Source: Oscillospiraceae bacterium (GTDB lineage: Bacteria; Bacillota; Clostridia; Oscillospirales; Ruminococcaceae). From it: DNA of 37,923 nt. Below, piece after piece: positions 15,458-32,497 of this stretch. The notes under the pieces were generated by a model. The model made no database searches and was not told the origin of the DNA. It saw nothing but the letters and a program-made list of their open reading frames with translations. Position numbers and translations under genes: made by a program. Position 1 is the first letter of the stretch. The number at the start of each line of letters is the position of its first letter. The stretch lies in NCBI GenBank assembly GCA_017545185.1, contig JAFWQJ010000092.1, positions 1 to 37,923 of the forward strand. The letters run 5' to 3'.

Positions 15458-15486
15458 ATTATAATATATTTCGGGGAATAATGCAA
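15458..15486 (-). promoter_or_regulatory. Promoter of the AraC gene
   Basis: Minus strand: TTGCAT (15486-15481), 17 bp, TATAAT (15463-15458). A start near 15451 leaves a very short leader that still holds the GGGG of the SD. Confidence 0.55.
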
Positions 15487-15492
15487 CAGAAA

Positions 15493-15519
15493 TTTGATAA
15501 AAAAGCTTTCTGTTTGATA
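15493..15519 (+). promoter_or_regulatory. TTTGATA direct repeats, candidate AraC-type operator
   Basis: TTTGATA occurs at 15493-15499 and 15513-15519, 20 bp apart (two helix turns, same face). The second copy lies where a -35 would be for the -10 at 15541. AraC-family dimers often bind direct repeats about 21 bp apart with the inner site next to the -35. Confidence 0.5.
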
Positions 15520-15537
15520 TTTTCGCACAAATATTTA

Positions 15538-15546
15538 TGCTATACT
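15538..15546 (+). promoter_or_regulatory. Extended -10 of the lichenase gene
   Basis: TGC followed by TATACT (15541-15546). The only -35-like TTGATA (15514-15519) is 21 bp away, too far for good unaided contact, which fits an activator-dependent promoter. Confidence 0.5.
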
Positions 15547-15591
15547 GACAATAGAAATCCATGGGGGATTTTGAAAAGGAGGGCTATAATC

Positions 15592-17526
15592 ATGAGGAAG
15601 CAGTATCGTACAGTCGCGGCGGCCTCCGCACTTCTGATTACGGCAGGGGTGCTGATGGGTGCAGTCAGTGCAGCGACAAAGGGTGACCTGAACAACGACG
15701 GCCAGTTGAACAGAGACGACGCGCTGTCGCTCCGTTCGTTCCTGACGGGCGTGACCAACGACCTGAAGGAAGACATGGACGTCAACGGTGACAGAAAGAT
15801 CGACGCAAGGGATCTTTCCGCACTGAAGTACAGCATTCTGAATCCGCAGCAGCAGCAGGATCCGGGTCAGAATCCGAGCGGTCCGCAGGATACGCCGAGC
15901 GGCATCAAGGATTACGGAACCCCGATGAATGAGAACGCAACAATGGTTTCCGATTTCCGCAAGGGTGCCGGCGATTTCTTCGCATCCGAGGGCTGGACGA
16001 ACGGCAAGCCGTTTGACTGCTGGTGGTACAAGCAGAATGCACAGATCGTGAACAGCGCACTGGAGCTGAAGATCGACCAGAAGTGGACGAGCGACCGCAA
16101 CAGTGACTGGGATCCGCAGTATTCCGGCGGTGAGTTCCGCACCAACAATTTCTATCACTACGGCTATTATGAGTGCTCGATGCAGGCGATCAAGAATGAC
16201 GGCGTTGTGTCTTCGTTCTTCACCTACACCGGTCCGTCCGATGTGATTAACGGACAGAAGAACCCGTGGGACGAGGTCGATATCGAGATCCTCGGCAAGG
16301 ACACCACGAAGGTGCAGCTCAACTACTACAGAGACGGCGTCGGCAAGCACGAGTATATGTATGATCTCGGCTTCGATGCTTCCGAGGGCTATCATACCTA
16401 CGGCTTTGACTGGCAGTCCGACCATATCACATGGTATGTGGACGGCAAGGAAGCCTATACGATGCGCGGCGACTGCCCGAAGACCGCAAGCAAGATCATG
16501 ATGAATGCATGGCCGGGCAGAACCGTTGACGACTGGCTCAAGCCGTACAACGGCAACAAGCCGCTGACCGCGCATTATCAGTGGGTCACCTACGACCAGA
16601 ACGGCAAGTCCGGCAGCGGCCAGCAGGGACAGCAGCAGAACCCGTGGGAGAATCCGGGTCAGCAGAACCCGTGGGAGAACCCGGGTCAGCAGAACCCGTG
16701 GGAGAATCCGGGTCAGCAGAACCCGTGGGAGAACCCGGGTCAGCAGAACCCGTGGGAGAATCCGGGTCAGCAGAATCCGTGGGAGAACCCGGGCCAGCAG
16801 GACAACCCCGGCCAGCAGGGTTCCGACTCCTCAGGCGGCATGAACGCGAATGCGACCATGGTCTCTGACTTCAGAACCGGCAATGCAGGCGACTTCTTCG
16901 CATCCGACGGTTGGACGAACGGCAAGCCGTTTGACTGCTGGTGGTACAAGCAGAACGCGCAGATCAACAACGGTCTGCTGGAACTGAAGATCGACCAGAA
17001 GTGGAATCAGGGCGACGCGAACTCCGACTGGAACCCGATGTATTCCGGCGGTGAGTTCCGCACCAACAACTTCTATCACTACGGCTACTATGAGACCTCG
17101 ATGAAGGCAATCAAGAATGACGGCGTTGTGTCCTCGTTCTTCACCTACACCGGTCCGTCCGATGTCGTCAACGGCCAGAAGAATCCGTGGGACGAGATCG
17201 ACATTGAGATCCTCGGCAAGGATACCACGAAGGTTCAGTTGAACTACTACAGAAACGGCGTCGGCGAGCACGAGAAGATGATCGACCTCGGCTTTGATGC
17301 CTCGCAGGATTTCCACAGATACGGCTTTAACTGGCAGCCGGGCAAGATCACATGGTACATTGACGGCAGAGAAGTCTGGTCGATGTCCGGTGATGTTCCG
17401 GTCACCCCGAGCAAGATTATGATGAATGCATGGCCGGGCAAGACGGTTGACGACTGGCTCAAGCCGTACAACGGCAACAAGCCGCTGACCGCTTACTACC
17501 AGTGGGTCACCTACAACCAGCAGTAA
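15592..17526 (+). CDS. Secreted dockerin-GH16-GH16 lichenase (beta-1,3-1,4-glucanase)
   Basis: 644 aa from ATG 15592 (AAGGAGGG SD). A signal peptide (1-27, ending AVSA) is followed at once by a dockerin (about 30-84) with two calcium loops, GDLNNDGQLNRDD and DVNGDRKIDARD. GH16 domain A is about 112-337 and domain B about 417-644. Both carry the lichenase motif WDE[VI]DIEILGKDTTKVQLNYY; nucleophile and acid/base are E228 and E232 in A, E535 and E539 in B. They are joined by six NPWENPGQQ repeats (350-403). Both domains match Bacillus-type lichenases along their length, so mixed-linkage glucan is the expected substrate. The N-terminal dockerin is less common than a C-terminal one. The copies are nearly identical over long stretches: a recent duplication. 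Confidence 0.95.
   Translation: MRKQYRTVAAASALLITAGVLMGAVSAATKGDLNNDGQLNRDDALSLRSFLTGVTNDLKEDMDVNGDRKIDARDLSALKYSILNPQQQQDPGQNPSGPQDTPSGIKDYGTPMNENATMVSDFRKGAGDFFASEGWTNGKPFDCWWYKQNAQIVNSALELKIDQKWTSDRNSDWDPQYSGGEFRTNNFYHYGYYECSMQAIKNDGVVSSFFTYTGPSDVINGQKNPWDEVDIEILGKDTTKVQLNYYRDGVGKHEYMYDLGFDASEGYHTYGFDWQSDHITWYVDGKEAYTMRGDCPKTASKIMMNAWPGRTVDDWLKPYNGNKPLTAHYQWVTYDQNGKSGSGQQGQQQNPWENPGQQNPWENPGQQNPWENPGQQNPWENPGQQNPWENPGQQNPWENPGQQDNPGQQGSDSSGGMNANATMVSDFRTGNAGDFFASDGWTNGKPFDCWWYKQNAQINNGLLELKIDQKWNQGDANSDWNPMYSGGEFRTNNFYHYGYYETSMKAIKNDGVVSSFFTYTGPSDVVNGQKNPWDEIDIEILGKDTTKVQLNYYRNGVGEHEKMIDLGFDASQDFHRYGFNWQPGKITWYIDGREVWSMSGDVPVTPSKIMMNAWPGKTVDDWLKPYNGNKPLTAYYQWVTYNQQ
16639..16800 (+). repeat. 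Tandem repeat, 6 x 27 bp, coding linker
   Basis: Six in-frame copies of a 27-bp unit encode NPWENPGQQ. The Asn codon at position 5 alternates AAT, AAC, AAT, AAC, AAT, AAC, so the true period is 54 bp repeated three times. Confidence 0.95.
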
Positions 17527-24068: not shown

Positions 24069-25265
24069 TTAGAATCCGAGCAGCGTCTTGAATTCTGCCG
24101 GTGTACACTCATAATATTTGTTTCCTGTCCACGCTGTTGTCGAATTCCAGAAGAACTGCACCTTTGTGATGCTACCGCTGTTCAGCTTGTTCAGCAGCCA
24201 TGTATTGTGAGAATATGCGTCCTTGTAGCCGCAGTTCAGCAGGATCTGGAGTTTGTTTTTGTAGACAGCCGTCGTCCAGCCGCTGTTGGCCGGAAGTGTG
24301 ACATTTGTGCCGAGGCACATTTGCAGGGTGCTGCCGCTGACTTTGACAGCATCAAAGCGGTTGTTCTTGAAGTGCGTCGCATACTGGCCGCCGTAGTAAT
24401 CATAAGCGACAGTCGTCATGCTCGTGCTGTTCAGGATGCCGGTATAGACGGTATTGTTATTCTTCGTATAGGTTTTCTTGAGTCTGTTCGTCACATAGGC
24501 ATTCTGACCGCAGCCGTTGTAGGTGACCTTGAGATCGTTCAGGATCGTGCAGGTCTGTGCCGATGCGAAGTACACAGCGCCGTCCGTTCTGAACGGGATG
24601 GTTCCGCTGAATGTGAATTCCGTGGTATAGCCGCGGGGGCGCGATCCGCTTCCTCTCTTGATCAGATTCGGCGCGCTGAATGTCGTGCGGCCGTCAGAGC
24701 AGCTCAGCTTCATGCCTGCCAGATAGAAATCGTCCCAGCGGATTGTTCCGCTGTACTGACCGGTTGCCGGATCCAGCGTGAACGACGACACATAGCCGTC
24801 GAGTGTATATCGGATCGTCGAATAGCCCGGATCGTATGCTCTGAGGCCGAGCGTATTGGCGGTCCTGGAATGGTGATAGATCAGGTTGAGCGCATAGGGC
24901 TTGTTGTTGAAATCTGTCATGTTGATCTTGTCGATATACTGTCTGACGGCGGTCAGGCTGTCGATCGTACCGACGGACGGGTGAATGGATCCCATGACCT
25001 GATAATCAGCCGCATTCTTGTATTTGAGCGTGCGGCCTGCCGGGTTGAAGCTGGATCTGAATTCCGGCATATTTGCCTGATCCTCAACGGTTTCCCAGTA
25101 ATACCCGATGACACCGGTTGTATTGTAGTTCTTCAGGTTTTGGTAGTAGCCGATGCTGCCGGAATTGGTGTTGACCGTGTAAGCCGATGCTGTCATACCG
25201 GCTGCGGACATTGCCGTGATCGCCGCTGCGGTGATCGCGGTCAGTTTGCGAATGATCTGTTTCAT
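24069..25265 (-). CDS. Secreted protein of unknown function
   Basis: 398 aa. A clear signal peptide (1-28, ending MTASA) leads into a 370-residue domain rich in Tyr, Asn, Thr and Ser with many beta-strand-like stretches. I see no GH, CBM, cohesin or dockerin signature. A tail repeating the theme W-x-aromatic-NST-x-x-W could bind a ligand, but this is a guess. The gene is expressed alone from a promoter with an A14/T14 tract in its spacer and lies beside cellulosome-related genes. Start ATG 25265 follows AGGGAGGAAAT. Could be a surface-binding or structural protein for plant polymers. Confidence 0.8.
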   Translation of the reverse strand: MKQIIRKLTAITAAAITAMSAAGMTASAYTVNTNSGSIGYYQNLKNYNTTGVIGYYWETVEDQANMPEFRSSFNPAGRTLKYKNAADYQVMGSIHPSVGTIDSLTAVRQYIDKINMTDFNNKPYALNLIYHHSRTANTLGLRAYDPGYSTIRYTLDGYVSSFTLDPATGQYSGTIRWDDFYLAGMKLSCSDGRTTFSAPNLIKRGSGSRPRGYTTEFTFSGTIPFRTDGAVYFASAQTCTILNDLKVTYNGCGQNAYVTNRLKKTYTKNNNTVYTGILNSTSMTTVAYDYYGGQYATHFKNNRFDAVKVSGSTLQMCLGTNVTLPANSGWTTAVYKNKLQILLNCGYKDAYSHNTWLLNKLNSGSITKVQFFWNSTTAWTGNKYYECTPAEFKTLLGF

Positions 25266-25650: not shown

Positions 25651-25684
25651 AAAAAAGACGCTGATCTTGCGGTCAGCGTCTTTT
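25651..25684 (-). terminator. Terminator of the GHL10-type gene
   Basis: Minus strand: AAAAGACGCTGA (25684-25673) pairs perfectly with TCAGCGTCTTTT (25664-25653), with T continuing to 25651. The stop codon lies in the stem. Confidence 0.88.
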
Positions 25685-26941
25685 CTTGCGATTCAGAACG
25701 GTGCCTGGGGACGCGTCCGCAGCGTTCTCCGCGCCGGAGCCCCATTTTGAATGCATCGCAGATACCGCCGCTTCCACCGCCTCACGCTCCGTCTCCGGCA
25801 GCGTGAGCAGCGCGTCCCCGTGGTAATACGCGACCCCGCAGAGCGTTCGGTCGGAGAGTACATCCTCGGTCTGCACGGCGGGGAGCTTCTCGGCGGTGCA
25901 CCATTCGTCCCGCCCGGAGCCAGCCGGCGGGTCGGGGTGCCCGTATTTGTACACCGCCAGCCCGACCGCCATGCGCACGGAATCCGCCCGCGGGAGCTCT
26001 GTCCAGTCCCGTAGCATCTCCGCAAACGGACAGGCTTCATTCCGGTAGCCGAAATACAGCTGCGGAATGATGAGATCGCAGTACCCGCCGTCTCTGCACC
26101 ATTTTTCCGCATCCGCAAAGAGCGTTTCGCGGTTCTTCTGCAGACTGCCCTGCGGACTGACGGAAAACACCGCGTTTTCGTCCGCATCGTGCACCGCGCC
26201 GTACATCGCCTGCATGAGCGCGCTGATATTGCCGCGCCGCCATTCCGCAAGGTCATCCGCGCCGGATCTCGCAAAGGCGTCCGCGTCAAATTCCGGGGTA
26301 TCGGTCGGATAGAAGTAGTCGTCCGCATGAATGCCCGCGGGGTGATATTTCAGCATCAGCTCGGTGATGACGCCTTTCAGGAATTTCCGCGTGGAATCCG
26401 CCGCCGGGTCGAGATAGAACCGCCCGTCCCATGTTGTGAGGTTCCGCTTTCGGAGCTTGCCGTTTTTGTACCACGCACAGAGCGCGGCATCGCCGGTCTG
26501 CTGCGCCATGACCTCGCCGGTCTGCAGCCTGAGCGGATTGATCCATGCGTGCAGCGCGATCTGCTGTTCTGCGCAGATATCGGTGAAAATCTGCATCCCG
26601 TCGTGCTCGCCGGCGGCAGGCAGGGCAGGGTAGTAGACGGACGGATAAATGCTTTCCCCGAACGCGCAGACATGCACGAATACCGTATTGATGCCGAACC
26701 CGGAGAGCTTTTGCAGATAGCTGCTGACATGTTCCCGGCAGACCGCCTCGTCCGGATCGGAGAGCAGGGCACTGACGCTGAAATACGGGATCCATGCAGC
26801 GACGATCTGTTCCGGCTGCGGTGCGGAGACAGGGACAGTCTCTGCGGATTCTTCGGCGGGCGGCGGGGGCAGGGGCGGCGCCGCGGCGCAGGCGGTGAGC
26901 AGCAGCGGCAGACAGAGCAGCAGGGGACGGATGCGCGGCAT
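25673..26941 (-). CDS. GHL10-type glycoside-hydrolase-like lipoprotein
   Basis: 422 aa from ATG 26941. Longer starts (to 26974) would lie in the probable -10 TATAAT, and GGAAAGGAAG is at the right distance for 26941. Lipoprotein signal with LTAC, C18 lipidated, then a Pro/Glu linker. The main domain is a TIM-barrel of the glycosyl-hydrolase-like 10 family: FGINTVFVHVCAFGESIYPS, LHAWINPLRLQTG, YLDPA, GIHADDYFYP and YCDLIIPQLYFGY. Members are thought to act on wall glycans, often with esterase or sugar-binding partners. The last 27 codons run through repeat copy C (WGSGAEN onwards) and into the terminator, so the native C-terminus may have been altered. Confidence 0.82.
   Translation of the reverse strand: MPRIRPLLLCLPLLLTACAAAPPLPPPPAEESAETVPVSAPQPEQIVAAWIPYFSVSALLSDPDEAVCREHVSSYLQKLSGFGINTVFVHVCAFGESIYPSVYYPALPAAGEHDGMQIFTDICAEQQIALHAWINPLRLQTGEVMAQQTGDAALCAWYKNGKLRKRNLTTWDGRFYLDPAADSTRKFLKGVITELMLKYHPAGIHADDYFYPTDTPEFDADAFARSGADDLAEWRRGNISALMQAMYGAVHDADENAVFSVSPQGSLQKNRETLFADAEKWCRDGGYCDLIIPQLYFGYRNEACPFAEMLRDWTELPRADSVRMAVGLAVYKYGHPDPPAGSGRDEWCTAEKLPAVQTEDVLSDRTLCGVAYYHGDALLTLPETEREAVEAAVSAMHSKWGSGAENAADASPGTVLNRKKRR
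25733..25770 (+). repeat. Dispersed GAGCCCCATTTTGAAT repeat, copy C
   Basis: Near match to copy A at 11761-11795 (shared core GGAGCCCCATTTTGAAT or GAGCCCC..., then TCG-AGA-ACCGC). Here it lies inside the 3' end of the GHL10-type gene. Confidence 0.5.
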
Positions 26942-26972
26942 AAACATGCTTCCTTTCCGGTGTGATATCTCC

Positions 26973-27001
26973 ATTATACCGGAAAGGCCGCGCGAAACAT
27001 G
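26973..27001 (-). promoter_or_regulatory. Probable promoter of the GHL10-type gene
   Basis: Minus strand TATAAT (26978-26973) with a poor -35, CATGTT (27001-26996), 17 bp away. It follows the hairpin at 27020-27054. Confidence 0.4.
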
Positions 27002-27017
27002 TCATTTACGGCAGCAG

Positions 27018-27054
27018 AAAGCCCGCATCCGGATCAGTCTGCCGGATGCGGGCT
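27018..27054 (-). terminator. Terminator after the cohesin-like lipoprotein gene
   Basis: A perfect 13-bp stem, AGCCCGCATCCGG (27020-27032) with CCGGATGCGGGCT (27042-27054), followed on the minus strand by only TTC. A strong stem with a weak T-run; partial read-through into the next gene is possible. Confidence 0.6.
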
Positions 27055-27060
27055 GCGCTG

Positions 27061-27831
27061 TCAGTCAATGCGAATCTCTCCGCCGATCGTTTTCAGACTC
27101 ACGGTATCTCCGTTCTCATTTTTCAGATCCGCGAGCTCGGTTTTGAGCTTATAGACCCTGCCGGAGGCCGCATTCTTGGGGATATCGAAATAGCAGGTGA
27201 ACAGATTGCCGTTTTCGTGGGAATCCTCCTGACCGAGAATGCCGTAAGCAACGATCAGGTTTTCGGTCGCGACCGAGCAATAGGTCAGAGCGGAGCCGAC
27301 GGCCGGACCCTTGTCGCTGACGCCCTGGAAGCTGTCCGGGTCATACTGCGGGGTGATCGCCGGGTCATAGATCACGCGGATGCCGCCGGCGCAGAAGCCG
27401 GGGTTGTTGTGGAGCTTCACCGTGACCGGCACGCTTTTCTGACCCGCCTTTGCATGGATGACGCCGATGCTCAGCGCGGGCTCGCTGCCGACCGCGTAGC
27501 TGTCGCCGTCATCGGCTGCGGCGGGCGTTTCCTGCGCAGCCTGTTCGTTTCCGGAAGCGTTCTGCGCGGGCGCATCGTTGTTCTGTGCAGCCTGACCGTC
27601 CCCGGCGGATGCGGCATTTCCGGCGCCGTTATCGGAAGCGGGCTTTGCGGTATCCCCGTTCCCGCCTGCTGCCTGATCGCCGCCGTTGTTGTTTTCAACG
27701 ATCTCGGTGACAACAGGCTCCCGGCTGTTCAGTGTACCGTCCTGCTGCGGCGCATCGCTGACCTCACAGGCAGAAAGCGTGCCTGCGATCAGCAGCGCAC
27801 AGCAGATCAAAGCAGATTTCATCAGTTTCAT
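27061..27831 (-). CDS. Lipoprotein with a single cohesin-like domain
   Basis: 256 aa. Lipoprotein signal with LSAC, C22 lipidated. A low-complexity spacer rich in Asn, Ala, Gly, Asp and Gln (about 30-110) would hold the domain off the membrane. Residues 116-256 look like a cohesin: ALSIGVIHAKAGQKSVPVTV, then PGFCAGGIRVIYDPAI, LFTCYFDIPKNAASG and a last strand pair LADLKNENGDTVSLKTIGGEIRI, shown in parts here. Cohesins bind dockerins, two of which are in this window. Its ATG overlaps the DUF58 stop (ATGA), so it is translated with moxR and DUF58. Lipid-anchored single cohesins are unusual; known ruminococcal anchors use sortase. Dockerin binding is inferred, and a general beta-sandwich is the alternative. 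Confidence 0.75.
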   Translation of the reverse strand: MKLMKSALICCALLIAGTLSACEVSDAPQQDGTLNSREPVVTEIVENNNGGDQAAGGNGDTAKPASDNGAGNAASAGDGQAAQNNDAPAQNASGNEQAAQETPAAADDGDSYAVGSEPALSIGVIHAKAGQKSVPVTVKLHNNPGFCAGGIRVIYDPAITPQYDPDSFQGVSDKGPAVGSALTYCSVATENLIVAYGILGQEDSHENGNLFTCYFDIPKNAASGRVYKLKTELADLKNENGDTVSLKTIGGEIRID

Positions 27832-28946
27832 GATTCAGGATTCCTTTCTTCTTGTATCAAAGCAATGTGACGGACATTCGGGCGGTGCTCATGATCGGAG
27901 AGCGGCCGCAGGGAGATGACCGTCATAGCGGGGTCGCGGTCTGCGGCAAGCAGGAGATCCGCGGCCGGATGAACGGTAATGAGGATGATCGCGGAGCTGC
28001 TGTCCTTCTGCCGGATCTCTTTGAGCAGATCGGTCGTGCGGCCGGAAATGCCGTAGGAGATCGCCGCGAGCAGCCGCAGCATCGGATAGAGCGCGTCTGT
28101 GCCGGAGCGGAACGGCGTTTCGGCGGGCGCGTCATTGACGTCAGTATTTGCGCAGAGCCGGACGGGTATCCGCATTCCGGCTGCGGTATTGAGACAGGCC
28201 GCACAGAGCCGCACGGCATTTTCAAACGAACCCGTATCGGATACGGTCTCGCGGTCGGTCTCTCTGGATTCCATGCTCAGTACGACGGTCACGGTCGGAG
28301 AGGCTGTCTCCTGAAACTGCCGGACCATCGGCTGTTCGGTACGCGCCGAGGCGCTCCAGCAGATATCCCGCACCGGGTCGCCGTCCGTATAGGGACGGAT
28401 GCCGCTGAAGCACATGCGGTCGGGGATCAGCATCCGCCTGCGGATGATATCGCCCATGATCTGCCGCGGGAACGCATCCGGGATCTCCGAATGCCTGCGC
28501 CCCGGGAGCACGGTCAGCTCGGCGTGCGCCTCCGGCAGTCTGCGGGAGAGCTCCTGTGCGCCGAACAGGTCGTTGATGACGATGACCGCGTGATCGACGG
28601 TGAACATGCCGCGCCTTGTGCAGGTGACCTTCCAGTGCCGGGTGATCTTCCGGTACGGCATCACGCAGAAGAAGCTGGAAACGAACCGTGTCTCCTCGGA
28701 AACGGCCGACTGCTTCGTCGCGAACAGCAGCGAGGAATGCGTTGTCAGCTCGGCCTTGACCCACGGCAGCGGGAGAAGCTTCCGGCTGCAGATCGTCTCG
28801 GTCAGCGTGACCGTGTCGCCCTCAAAGGCCTCCTGCTCGGAGAATGCGAGCTCATAGGTGAGATTTTTGAAGCCGAACCGCCGGATGAGTGACTGGGAGA
28901 CTACGATCGCGAAGCCGACGCAGAGCAGCAGCAGTACGAGGATCAT
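27828..28946 (-). CDS. DUF58 domain protein
   Basis: 372 aa. One or two hydrophobic segments at the N-terminus (about 1-18) anchor it; a beta-rich part follows, and then the DUF58 core with PYTDGDPVRDICWSASART and VRQFQE, ending in a von Willebrand A-like fold (VVLSMES, a degenerate MIDAS). DUF58 proteins occur almost always beside MoxR ATPases, as here, where start and stop overlap by 4 bp (ATGA) on both sides. The role of these pairs is poorly known; chaperone-like assembly of surface or metal-dependent proteins has been suggested. Confidence 0.9.
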   Translation of the reverse strand: MILVLLLLCVGFAIVVSQSLIRRFGFKNLTYELAFSEQEAFEGDTVTLTETICSRKLLPLPWVKAELTTHSSLLFATKQSAVSEETRFVSSFFCVMPYRKITRHWKVTCTRRGMFTVDHAVIVINDLFGAQELSRRLPEAHAELTVLPGRRHSEIPDAFPRQIMGDIIRRRMLIPDRMCFSGIRPYTDGDPVRDICWSASARTEQPMVRQFQETASPTVTVVLSMESRETDRETVSDTGSFENAVRLCAACLNTAAGMRIPVRLCANTDVNDAPAETPFRSGTDALYPMLRLLAAISYGISGRTTDLLKEIRQKDSSSAIILITVHPAADLLLAADRDPAMTVISLRPLSDHEHRPNVRHIALIQEERNPES

Positions 28947-29896
28947 GATTTCGGCACCGGCACGCTGTCAAGGATCTCGCCGACCAGACTGCGTGCAGCC
29001 TGCCGGTCTGTGAGCAGTCCCTCTGCCGCATGGATGCGGTGCGTGCAGACCGCCGGGAATACCTTTTTGATATCGTCGGGCAGCAGATAGTCTCTGCCTT
29101 CCATAGCCGCGGCAGCCTGTGCCGCGTGCCGGACGGCGAGCGCGCCGCGGGTGCTCAGTCCGAAGCGGATCTTCTTGTGCCGCCGCGTTGCATCCGCGAG
29201 ATCGAGCAGATAATCGAGCACCGCGTCCGAAGCGGAAACGGTCCGCACGGCCTGCTGCGCCGCGAGCAGCGTTTCAGGATCGGTGACCGGCTTCAGCGCA
29301 TCCAGCGGGTCGGCGGTCTGCCGGTCTTTGAGGATCTCGCGTTCCTGATCCCGTTCGGGGACGCCGGGTGCAAGGCACATGAAAAAGCGGTCGAGCTGAG
29401 CCTCGGGCAGCGGGAACGTGCCCTGCAGCTCGATCGGGTTCTGTGTCGCGATGACGAAAAACGGCTTCGGCAGGTCATACCGGACGCCGCCTGATGTGAC
29501 ATGATGCTCCGCCATGCATTCGAGCAGACCCGCCTGCGAGCGCGGCGCCATGCGGTTGATCTCGTCGGCGAGCAGCAGATTCGTAAAGACCGGCCCTTTG
29601 CGGAACTGCATGGTGCGGCTGCCGTCGGGCTGCTGCACGAGCATCTCAAAACCGGTGATATCCGCCGGCATCAGGTCGGGCGTACACTGCACGCGCTTGG
29701 AATCGCAGCCGGTCAGCACGGCAAACGCGTTGACGAGCGTGGTCTTGCCGGTGCCGGGGAGATCCTCGAGCAGCACATGTCCGCCGCAGAAAAGCGCGGC
29801 TGTCAGCATATAAATAGTATCGTCCGCGCCGCGGATGACGGTCCCGGCGCCCTGCCGGAGCTTCTCCGCAAGCTGCGGGATATCCTGTATTTTCAT
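28943..29896 (-). CDS. MoxR family AAA+ ATPase
   Basis: 317 aa, usual length. Walker A LPGTGKTT at 46-53, Walker B LLLADEINR with D111 and E112, sensor 1 in VIATQNPIE, and the C-terminal lid domain. MoxR ATPases are thought to remodel or activate partner proteins. This is the first gene of a three-gene unit (moxR, DUF58, cohesin-like lipoprotein) with its own consensus promoter. The SD AAAGGAG precedes the ATG. Confidence 0.93.
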   Translation of the reverse strand: MKIQDIPQLAEKLRQGAGTVIRGADDTIYMLTAALFCGGHVLLEDLPGTGKTTLVNAFAVLTGCDSKRVQCTPDLMPADITGFEMLVQQPDGSRTMQFRKGPVFTNLLLADEINRMAPRSQAGLLECMAEHHVTSGGVRYDLPKPFFVIATQNPIELQGTFPLPEAQLDRFFMCLAPGVPERDQEREILKDRQTADPLDALKPVTDPETLLAAQQAVRTVSASDAVLDYLLDLADATRRHKKIRFGLSTRGALAVRHAAQAAAAMEGRDYLLPDDIKKVFPAVCTHRIHAAEGLLTDRQAARSLVGEILDSVPVPKS

Positions 29897-29931: not shown

Positions 29932-29960
29932 AGTATAGCATGAGAAACCGATTTTGTCAA
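29932..29960 (-). promoter_or_regulatory. Promoter of the moxR operon
   Basis: Minus strand: TTGACA (29960-29955), 17 bp, TATACT (29937-29932) with TGC before the -10. Confidence 0.82.
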
Positions 29961-30321: not shown

Positions 30322-30376
30322 CCAAAAAATGAGGGTTTTTTGGAATGTTGCTACAAAAAATGAGAGGGGTTTTTTC
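30322..30376 (+). promoter_or_regulatory. Twin A6/T6 hairpins, the second enclosing the SD
   Basis: CAAAAAATGAG...TTTTTT occurs twice (30323-30341 and 30354-30375). In the second copy the loop holds GAGAGGGG (30362-30369), the ribosome-binding site of the cellulase, so A6/T6 pairing would hide it. The first copy closes with CC/GG. Confidence 0.5.
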
Positions 30377-32497
30377 ATGAGCAAACATTTGATGAAGCGC
30401 GTCGGCGCAGTCTGCACGAGCGCTGTGATGTCTCTGAGCGCACTGATCGCAACGAGCACCGTCACACCGATCACGGCAGATGCGGCCGGCAGCGACAACT
30501 ACGCAAGACTGCTCCAGTACAGCCTGTATCTGTATGACGCCAATATGTGCGGCGACATCTCCGGCAGCTGTGCAATGGAGTGGCGCGGCAACTGCCACAT
30601 GGACGATCAGGTCAAGGGCGGTTACCACGACGCAGGCGACCATGTCATGTTCGGTCTGCCGCAGGGCTACGCTGCCAGCACGATCGCATGGTCCTACTAC
30701 GAGTTCAAGAACTCGTATGACAAGCTCGGCCTGACCGACCACTACAAGACGATCAACAAGCACTTTATTGATTTCTTCAAGGCGTCCACGAAGCTGAGCG
30801 GCGACAGCGTCTCCGAATTCCTGTATCAGAAGGGCGAGGGTCAGCCGGACCACAACTACTGGGGCGCACCGGAGAACCAGACCGGTTCCCGCAAGATGTA
30901 CTGGACGTCCAACGGCGCAAGTGATATCGCAGCAGAGTATGCGGCAGCGCTCGCACTGGACTACATCAACTTCAAGAATGAGGATTCCCTGAAGTACGCA
31001 AAGGCGCTTTATAACTTCTCCTGCCAGAACAACCAGGTCGCAAGAGACGGCGTGCAGGGCTTCTACCTGAGCAACGATGCAAAGTGCAGCGATGACCAGG
31101 CATGGGCAGCCGCATGGCTCCACATCGCGACCGGCGAAGGCAAGTACCTCGACGATGCAAAGTCCAAGGTCACGCAGTACCTCGGCTGGGCACACGCATG
31201 GGGCAACACCGACCTCGGCGCAGCGACCGTCATCGCGGAGATCACCAATGACTGGAGCAAGGTCAACGGTTATATCGGTTCTGTCTGCAACTCCAGCAAT
31301 TACCTCTGCATGGACAGTTGGGGCAGTGCAAGATATAACTGCGGCATGCAGTTCATCTCGCTGCTCGCGACGAAAAAGGGCGGCGCAAACTATGCAAACT
31401 GGGCACAGGGTCAGATGAACCTGATCCTCGGCGGCAACGGCGGCAAGAACTATGTTGTCGGCTGGGACAACAACTCCCCGACACACTGCCACCACAGAGC
31501 TGCATCCGGCATGAACGATTCCAAGAGCGATGAGCCGAACAAGTATGTGCTTGTCGGCGCACTCGTCGGCGGCCCGAACAAGGACGGCTTGTATGTTGAC
31601 CAGCGTTACGATGAAATCGGCTACATGGTCAACGAGGTCGCACTGGACTATCAGGCCTGTCTGGTCTGCGCGGCAGCCGCACTGTATGACAAGTTCGGCA
31701 CCGGTTCCTGCGATACCTCGATCACCGGCGTCAAGAACGTGAACCTCACTCCGGGCAGCGGCGATACCCCGCAGCAGCCGCAGACCACGACGGCTCCTCC
31801 GGACAATCCGCAGCAGACCGTGACCGATGCACCGAATCCGTCTCAGCCGGGTACTGCAAGCGGCAACGCGACCGTGACCGAAGGCAATGAAGAAGGCAAG
31901 TATCAGATCGCAGTCAACGGTCCGTGCACGCTCGAGATCAAGATCAAGACCAACTCCAATGACTGGGAGTCCAACGGCGGCTACGGCTACTCGCAGGGCG
32001 ACTGGGTCCAGAAGGAATGGAAGGCAGATTCTTCCAGCGGTTCCTTCACCGTGTCGATCGACGTTCCGTCGGGCGTCAGCAATGTCCAGTTCCAGATCTA
32101 CTGGCCGAAGTCTGCTACGATCGAAAGTGCAAGCTATACCGGCGGTTCGTCGAACCCTGTCGTCACCGATCCGCCGCAGATCGTCACGCAGGCACCTGTG
32201 ACCACGACCACAACGACCACGACGACCACCACCACGACCAGTGCTCCGGCGACCACTACTACCACAGTGACCACCGAGCGTGAAAAGCCGAAGATGATGA
32301 ACCGCGGCGACGCAAACTGCGACGGCGGCTGCGACGTCTCCGATGCAGTTCTCATCTGCCGTCTGGCTGTTGAGGACAAAAACGCACACATCACCGATCA
32401 GGGCATTGCCAATGCCGACGCAAACAGAGACGGCAAAATGGACAGCGACGATGTCGTTGAGATCCTGAACTGGATCGCATTCCTTGTTCAGTGGTAA
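30377..32497 (+). CDS. Secreted GH9 cellulase with CBM-like module and dockerin
   Basis: 706 aa from ATG 30377 (GAGAGGGG SD). Signal peptide about 1-37. GH9 catalytic domain about 38-455: DAGD at 85-88 holds the catalytic base, HHR at 372-374 is the substrate-site motif and E420 in NEVALDYQA is the expected proton donor. A Pro/Thr linker leads to a beta-sandwich of about 495-592, rich in exposed Trp and Tyr, that is probably a carbohydrate-binding module of a family I cannot name. A Thr-tract linker (about 600-640) precedes the C-terminal dockerin (643-702) with loops DANCDGGCDVSD and DANRDGKMDSDD. No Ig-like domain is found before the catalytic domain. It would cut cellulose or other beta-1,4-glucans while bound to a cohesin scaffold. 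Confidence 0.95.
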   Translation: MSKHLMKRVGAVCTSAVMSLSALIATSTVTPITADAAGSDNYARLLQYSLYLYDANMCGDISGSCAMEWRGNCHMDDQVKGGYHDAGDHVMFGLPQGYAASTIAWSYYEFKNSYDKLGLTDHYKTINKHFIDFFKASTKLSGDSVSEFLYQKGEGQPDHNYWGAPENQTGSRKMYWTSNGASDIAAEYAAALALDYINFKNEDSLKYAKALYNFSCQNNQVARDGVQGFYLSNDAKCSDDQAWAAAWLHIATGEGKYLDDAKSKVTQYLGWAHAWGNTDLGAATVIAEITNDWSKVNGYIGSVCNSSNYLCMDSWGSARYNCGMQFISLLATKKGGANYANWAQGQMNLILGGNGGKNYVVGWDNNSPTHCHHRAASGMNDSKSDEPNKYVLVGALVGGPNKDGLYVDQRYDEIGYMVNEVALDYQACLVCAAAALYDKFGTGSCDTSITGVKNVNLTPGSGDTPQQPQTTTAPPDNPQQTVTDAPNPSQPGTASGNATVTEGNEEGKYQIAVNGPCTLEIKIKTNSNDWESNGGYGYSQGDWVQKEWKADSSSGSFTVSIDVPSGVSNVQFQIYWPKSATIESASYTGGSSNPVVTDPPQIVTQAPVTTTTTTTTTTTTTSAPATTTTTVTTEREKPKMMNRGDANCDGGCDVSDAVLICRLAVEDKNAHITDQGIANADANRDGKMDSDDVVEILNWIAFLVQW

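Follow-up and report, generated by a model that had tools for sequence, protein, structure and literature searches.

What does a cohesin do when encoded by the third gene of a MoxR-DUF58 operon? The question is raised by a 37,923-nucleotide stretch of an Oscillospiraceae bacterium (contig JAFWQJ010000092.1, hereafter the window), in which the genes of a MoxR-family ATPase and a DUF58 protein are followed by that of a predicted lipoprotein with a C-terminal cohesin-type domain. We lean towards reading the protein as a lipid-tethered, stand-alone cohesin that would serve as a receptor or anchor for dockerin proteins at the membrane and would work like the surface "receptor/transit" scaffoldins OlpC and ScaG. 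No description of a cohesin lipoprotein, or of a MoxR-DUF58 operon of this kind, was found by title and abstract start in the open-licence literature.

The cohesin domain and its lipid-anchor signature

Profile searches and a structural model indicated that the C-terminal domain of the lipoprotein is almost certainly a cohesin. PF00963 was the sole Pfam family matched at E <= 1 by the 256 amino acids (aa) of the protein, and the match spanned residues 119–254 and positions 2–138 of the 139 in the model. A cohesin profile built from 25 related domains, including that of the window itself, was searched against the chains of solved structures in the PDB and found 24 distinct chains at E <= 1, 23 of which were cohesins or scaffoldins. 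The best match was the cell-wall anchoring protein 8ajy of Ruminococcus flavefaciens (E 1.6e-11), and the ScaE cohesin 2zf9 was matched at E 1.6e-10. A phmmer search of the PDB with the full lipoprotein found no cohesin where the 25-domain profile did, and the NCBIfam scan gave only two weak matches, both to the linker.

AlphaFold2 predicted a nine-stranded fold for the domain alone (Table 1). By title, the best 50 of the 86 Foldseek rows at E <= 0.001 were all cellulosome entries, one of which (3kcp) was titled merely "multimodular components". The first eight rows came from two entries, 4n2o, a "novel autonomous cohesin", and 4wkz, a ScaG cohesin in complex with an X-dockerin; identity to them over the aligned fold was 21–22 %. 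Both are presumably ScaG, 4wkz alone being so named, and a 2015 study by Voronov-Goldman is said to have dealt with this autonomous cohesin of R. flavefaciens. Like the window domain it stands alone, and it had the closest fold among the PDB matches listed; the window protein differs in its lipobox, its long linker and its MoxR-DUF58 operon, the ScaG anchor being outside this comparison. Another beta-sandwich, such as a carbohydrate-binding module, was considered and rejected, none being among the best 50 of the 86 rows. The initial annotation had called residues 116–256 cohesin-like; the profile search and the predicted fold agreed with it, and a non-cohesin fold was not borne out.

In the alignment of the 25 domains, one side of strands 5 and 6 carried mostly hydrophobic or small residues: positions 76, 80, 87 and 93 were hydrophobic in 72 to 100 % of the rows, and Ala or Gly occupied position 89 in 24 rows and position 91 in 23, the side being assigned by strand alternation rather than coordinates and the scoring covering this one sheet, with no control from the other. 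In known cohesins these two strands belong to the sheet that faces the dockerin, and a side of this composition would suit such a surface.

At the N-terminus, a type II signal peptide with a lipobox Cys was recognized by pattern (MKLMKSALICCALLIAGTLSAC), and the protein is expected to be lipidated at this residue. The strict lipobox pattern was present in 14 of the 25 related proteins, so that the annotated lipid-anchor signature of the window protein is shared with 13 further ones; the remaining 11 have, by eye, a Cys preceded by Gly or Ser at the close of the hydrophobic stretch. The protein consists of a single cohesin without a dockerin or enzyme module (Pfam at E <= 1). It ends with this cohesin, and no Pfam match to an SLH, LPXTG, LysM, C-terminal transmembrane helix or similar anchor was found in it.

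Operon layout and conservation in the genus

The initial annotation described three minus-strand genes with ATGA overlaps at both joints, one consensus promoter before moxR and a strong hairpin after the lipoprotein gene. The open reading frames (ORFs) and both joints were confirmed in the sequence, where moxR and duf58 overlap at 28946–28943 and duf58 and the lipoprotein gene at 27831–27828. The promoter was also found. Between positions 26500 and 30500 there were 5 promoter-like sites against a mean of 1.3 in shuffles. A comparison covering 14 of the 19 named loci that bear the lipoprotein, the other 5 not being included, showed both hexamers before moxR in 13 of the 14 loci printed; in the fourteenth (L159) the -10 alone fell inside the printed stretch. 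As for the hairpin, the strong stem stood: the 77-nt region folded at -34.1 kcal/mol (z -3.5), a value equalled by 1 of 200 shuffles. It is likely a terminator, though short of proven: its T-tract, TTTCTGC, is weak, and it was absent from the output of the terminator scan.

Ratios of nonsynonymous to synonymous substitution rates (dN/dS) against the nearest relative (L148, whose lipoprotein was read starting one codon before its start) were 0.25 for the lipoprotein gene, 0.08 for duf58 and 0.07 for moxR; against the next relative (L149) they were 0.48, 0.19 and 0.11, respectively. The lipoprotein gene is thus under purifying selection, weaker than that on moxR and duf58.

Table 1. Positions of the operon, its parts and neighbouring genes in the window
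Feature	Position	Strand	Description
moxR	28943-29896	minus	MoxR-family AAA+ ATPase, 317 aa; Pfam PF07726 AAA_3 E 2.5e-55, AAA_lid_2 E 2.3e-19
duf58	27828-28946	minus	DUF58 protein, 372 aa; PF01882 E 4.7e-11, above cut-off
Cohesin lipoprotein gene	27061-27831	minus	256 aa; ORF, PF00963 below cut-off, profile and fold matches
Signal peptide and lipobox	27766-27831	minus	LSAC; lipidated Cys22 expected, from sequence
Linker	27487-27765	minus	Residues 23-115; low-complexity, rich in Ala/Asn/Gly/Gln/Asp, from sequence
Cohesin domain	27064-27486	minus	Residues 116-256; nine strands; AlphaFold2 predicted local distance difference test (pLDDT) 94.8, predicted template modelling score (pTM) 0.88; Foldseek 4n2o E 5.6e-10
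Operon promoter	29932-29960	minus	Sigma-A-type, extended -10; TTGACA-17-TATACT, TG before -10, 11/12 matches
Hairpin 3' of lipoprotein gene	27021-27053	minus	12-bp perfect stem, 27053-27042/27032-27021
GH9 cellulase	30329-32497	plus	C-terminal dockerin; divergent neighbour upstream of operon
GHL10-family gene	25673-26974	minus	Downstream neighbour of lipoprotein gene
GH16 (lichenase-type) protein	15481-17526	plus	Two GH16 stretches and N-terminal dockerin

The DUF58 protein of the window has a hydrophobic N-terminal segment, as seen by alignment and hydropathy. The motif DxSxS is absent from it at the aligned place and, by reading, from the other 31 alignment rows. Its absence was rejected as a special feature of the window protein because the rows from other genera lack it as well.

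Conservation was examined in 30 genomes of the genus, the window's own included, many of which are fragmented or incomplete. A DUF58 ortholog (E <= 1e-30) was found in 22, and the cohesin lipoprotein directly follows DUF58 in 20 of these, its own genome among them; the exceptions are G024 and G017. The joint is an exact ATGA overlap in 10 of the 20, and a possible lipoprotein start lies <= 70 nt from the DUF58 stop in 19 and at 169 nt in the remaining one, start codons and gaps being the analyst's choice of start. MoxR is upstream in 19 of the 20 loci; the twentieth (L038) ends before that point, but MoxR is visible in L162, the named record of this locus. The order annotated in the window thus recurs, and uniqueness to one strain is not borne out. 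Identity of the 24 other domains to that of the window was 26 to 87 %, and just 26–40 % in 22 of them; chance was rejected as the source of an order kept in so many genomes despite such divergence. A stand-alone cohesin with a predicted lipid anchor as the third gene product of a MoxR-DUF58 operon is a real, genus-wide variant. Neither DUF58 nor a grouped lipoprotein was detected in G001, G013, G015, G025 and G026, and in G029 the lipoprotein lies at a contig end; these absences may be assembly gaps.

The profile found the lipoprotein in 19 of the 43 named loci that hold a DUF58 relative and gave no match in the genus-type loci L167 and L168 or in the 22 more distant ones. The 21 genus-type records were all metagenome-assembled, under Ruminococcus, Oscillospiraceae or Clostridia titles and from rumen or other gut sites where the title tells; none belongs to a cultured species.

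A DUF58 relative was also present in 30 of 177 genomes drawn from the larger family, 28 of them in other genera. There, the ORF starting at the DUF58 stop begins with membrane segments (by eye) in 23 of the 28 loci; among five such proteins scanned, three matched DUF4129, one above the cut-off, and two did not. The lipoprotein profile gave no match in these 28 loci within flanks of 1.5 kb, in which some third genes are incomplete. Operons of the MoxR-DUF58-DUF4129 or transglutaminase type share their first two genes and overlapping starts with the window, whereas its third gene encodes a predicted lipid-anchored cohesin in place of the DUF4129, transglutaminase or VWA membrane protein. In the window's own genome, contig C23 groups MoxR and DUF58 with a transglutaminase, and contig C34 carries a further MoxR-DUF58 pair.

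The lipoprotein also occurs apart from the pair. In G022 (96 % complete) it lies in the same neighbourhood, with GH9-dockerin, phosphoesterase and asparaginase genes; the 12-kb stretch contains neither MoxR nor DUF58, and the search of its genome gave no DUF58 ortholog. G024 (99 %) has the lipoprotein and MoxR-DUF58 on different contigs, with one stop in the DUF58 match, and G020 (84 %) has the lipoprotein and yielded no DUF58 ortholog. In the tree, these three grouped with the operon lipoproteins, 24 of the 25 lipoprotein rows falling together (support 86/88); that of G017, where MoxR-DUF58 lies elsewhere, fell outside the main group. These cases show that the pairing is a strong genus habit with no obligate dependence, and that no dedicated loader is needed beside the lipoprotein.

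Function of the lipoprotein

In the reading that we favour, the lipoprotein would be expressed from the conserved MoxR-DUF58 operon promoter, exported by Sec and then lipidated on Cys22, and its one cohesin would be held just outside the membrane on a linker of about 90 residues. It would there capture dockerin- or X-dockerin-bearing cellulosome proteins, as a transit receptor for newly secreted proteins or as an extra surface anchor. In the operon it would occupy the place of the DUF4129-type or transglutaminase membrane protein of other genera; MoxR and DUF58 would most likely keep a general envelope role, and the cohesin would work without them. Capture of dockerins is likely. Potential partners are plentiful: dockerin matches at E <= 1e-5 numbered 45 to 143 in all 30 genus genomes, figures that are lower bounds because no more than 149 candidates were scored in any genome. 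The window's own genome had 143, together with 28 cohesin matches at E <= 0.1, of which 18 were above the cut-off.

Several points weigh against this reading. The PF00963 match (20.4 bits, E 6.1e-4) did not reach the curated cut-off of 24.1, which is a sensitivity threshold and not a structural feature. The cohesin domain diverges rapidly, and its partner may therefore differ between species. The lipoprotein group is only moderately supported: all 25 rows came together in 15 % of the 200 bootstrap trees, with the bootstrap unsettled. Moreover, a cohesin fold does not by itself imply that enzymes dock there, since this genus also has cohesin-type domains on membrane proteins beside extracytoplasmic function (ECF) sigma factors.

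If the lipid-tethered receptor is real, its anchor puts a docking site at the membrane itself, beside the secretion channel, and would bear on how more than 100 dockerin proteins are held or sorted before assembly. The MoxR-DUF58 pair, a kind with mostly unknown function, would gain a conserved, testable partner in fibre-degrading gut bacteria.

Among known single-cohesin proteins, OrfXp reportedly has a membrane location; the lipid anchor would be less new if OrfXp is a lipoprotein. OlpC, clostridial ScaG and OrfXp resemble the window protein in having a single cohesin at the cell surface, and scaffoldins of the OlpC and ScaG type are proposed to receive newly secreted dockerin enzymes and to keep them before assembly (PMC6507058). 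OlpC and clostridial ScaG are anchored by a cell-surface-binding module, in contrast to the lipobox of the window protein. ScaE, one of the best profile matches, also combines a single cohesin with a surface anchor and is attached by sortase via LPXTG (PMC5301203), unlike the window protein with its lipobox. The anchor classes in a 2024 cellulosome survey are SLH, LPxTG, LysM, C-terminal helix and similar ones, and the word "lipoprotein" is absent from its main text (PMC11557425). Relatives of the window lipoprotein may sit unlabelled in cohesin lists, because single-cohesin proteins without a dockerin are known from R. flavefaciens (PMC4081043).

The initial annotation suggested a part for MoxR and DUF58 in folding, loading or controlling the cohesin. 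In that reading the pair would form a chaperone dedicated to its folding, loading or gating. The order kept in 20 of 22 DUF58 genomes, with exact ATGA overlaps in half of those 20 loci, speaks for such a tie, as does co-occurrence over the 30 genomes (both 21, DUF58 alone 1, lipoprotein alone 3, neither 5; Fisher p 0.002), a figure that shared ancestry and incomplete genomes make less telling. There is also a precedent in the Bifidobacterium PFNA operon (pkb2-fn3-aaa-atp-duf58-tgm), which likewise joins MoxR and DUF58 to a secreted or surface beta-sandwich protein and in which MoxR is a possible FN3 chaperone; it differs in having FN3 and not a cohesin, fn3 upstream, and a kinase and a transglutaminase (PMC8430577). 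The lipoproteins kept without an adjacent pair in G022, G024 and G020, and the different third gene of the pairs in other genera, tell against it; so does location, MoxR proteins being generally taken as cytosolic and the cohesin as lying outside the membrane. On present evidence a loading machine for the cohesin is unlikely, and we give the dedicated chaperone little credence.

The same three genomes bear on the idea that the lipoprotein is a structural subunit of a MoxR-DUF58 envelope complex, replacing the DUF4129-type protein and having no cellulosome role. It does share its position with the membrane-segment ORFs of other genera (23 of 28 loci, by eye), three of the five scanned matching DUF4129; its retention without the adjacent pair and the dockerin-rich genomes throughout the genus searched make this very improbable. 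Somewhat less improbable, though still unlikely, is that the cohesin fold serves as an adhesin or sensor subunit for a ligand other than dockerins (a glycan, an envelope protein, or a host or fibre surface). The genus does have membrane proteins with cohesin-type ectodomains encoded next to ECF sigma genes, and the dockerin-less single-cohesin proteins of R. flavefaciens have an unknown role, the authenticity of some putative cohesins being left open (PMC4081043). However, the closest solved relatives of the domain come from scaffoldins or cohesin-dockerin complexes, and all 30 genomes are rich in dockerins. A bolder extension of the receptor, to which we assign only a slim chance, is a membrane-side assembly checkpoint: the cohesin would take dockerin proteins leaving the Sec channel, MoxR-DUF58 would drive their release to scaffoldins through DUF58 across the membrane, and ECF-linked sister cohesins would read dockerin supply and adjust expression.

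Neighbouring genes and other cohesin-type proteins

Dockerin enzymes had been annotated nearby, and both the GH9 cellulase and the GH16 protein carry a dockerin. That of GH9 scored 19.5 bits, under the cut-off of 22.9; the GH9 dockerin at the same place in G022 scored 26.4 bits. Among the 19 lipoprotein-bearing named loci, several of them incomplete, a GH9 gene is upstream in 11 (catalytic part searched) and a GHL10 gene downstream in 9. The GHL10-family protein, in which LLTAC was read by eye, is probably a lipoprotein too, and its gene adjoins the cohesin lipoprotein also in G017. The window also encodes, at 24069–25265, a 398-aa protein that begins like a signal peptide (by eye) and matched nothing in Pfam or NCBIfam at E <= 1.

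In a set of 21 hand-picked loci, ECF-linked cohesin ectodomains were seen in four genomes (G000, G001, G002 and G006). The ECF sigma gene overlaps or abuts that of a protein with a single transmembrane segment and a cohesin-type ectodomain in L141:1602-3796 (own genome, contig C57), L191, L202 and L137. A profile of five such membrane proteins matched R. flavefaciens cell-wall anchoring cohesins (3.6e-7) and ScaE (3.5e-6). The two ECF-linked proteins that were scanned matched no family of Pfam or NCBIfam. From gene arrangement only, these proteins may be anti-sigma-like, and a cohesin as sensor would suit dockerin sensing; no description of such a sensor beside a sigma factor was found in the open-licence literature. 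A similar membrane protein in L201 (G009) had no sigma neighbour detected.

In another genus of the family, L089 (G163) and L097 (G048) encode short proteins that combine a cohesin-type domain with a signal resembling a lipobox (by eye) and that fall outside the main lipoprotein tree group; no DUF58 relative was reported in either genome. In the window's own genome, L138:9804-11345 (contig C34) combines a dockerin-like N-terminal repeat (by eye), a cohesin-type domain just under the cut-off (23.9 bits) and a GH25 lysozyme domain. Similar architectures were seen by eye in L099, L096, L193, L198 and L199.

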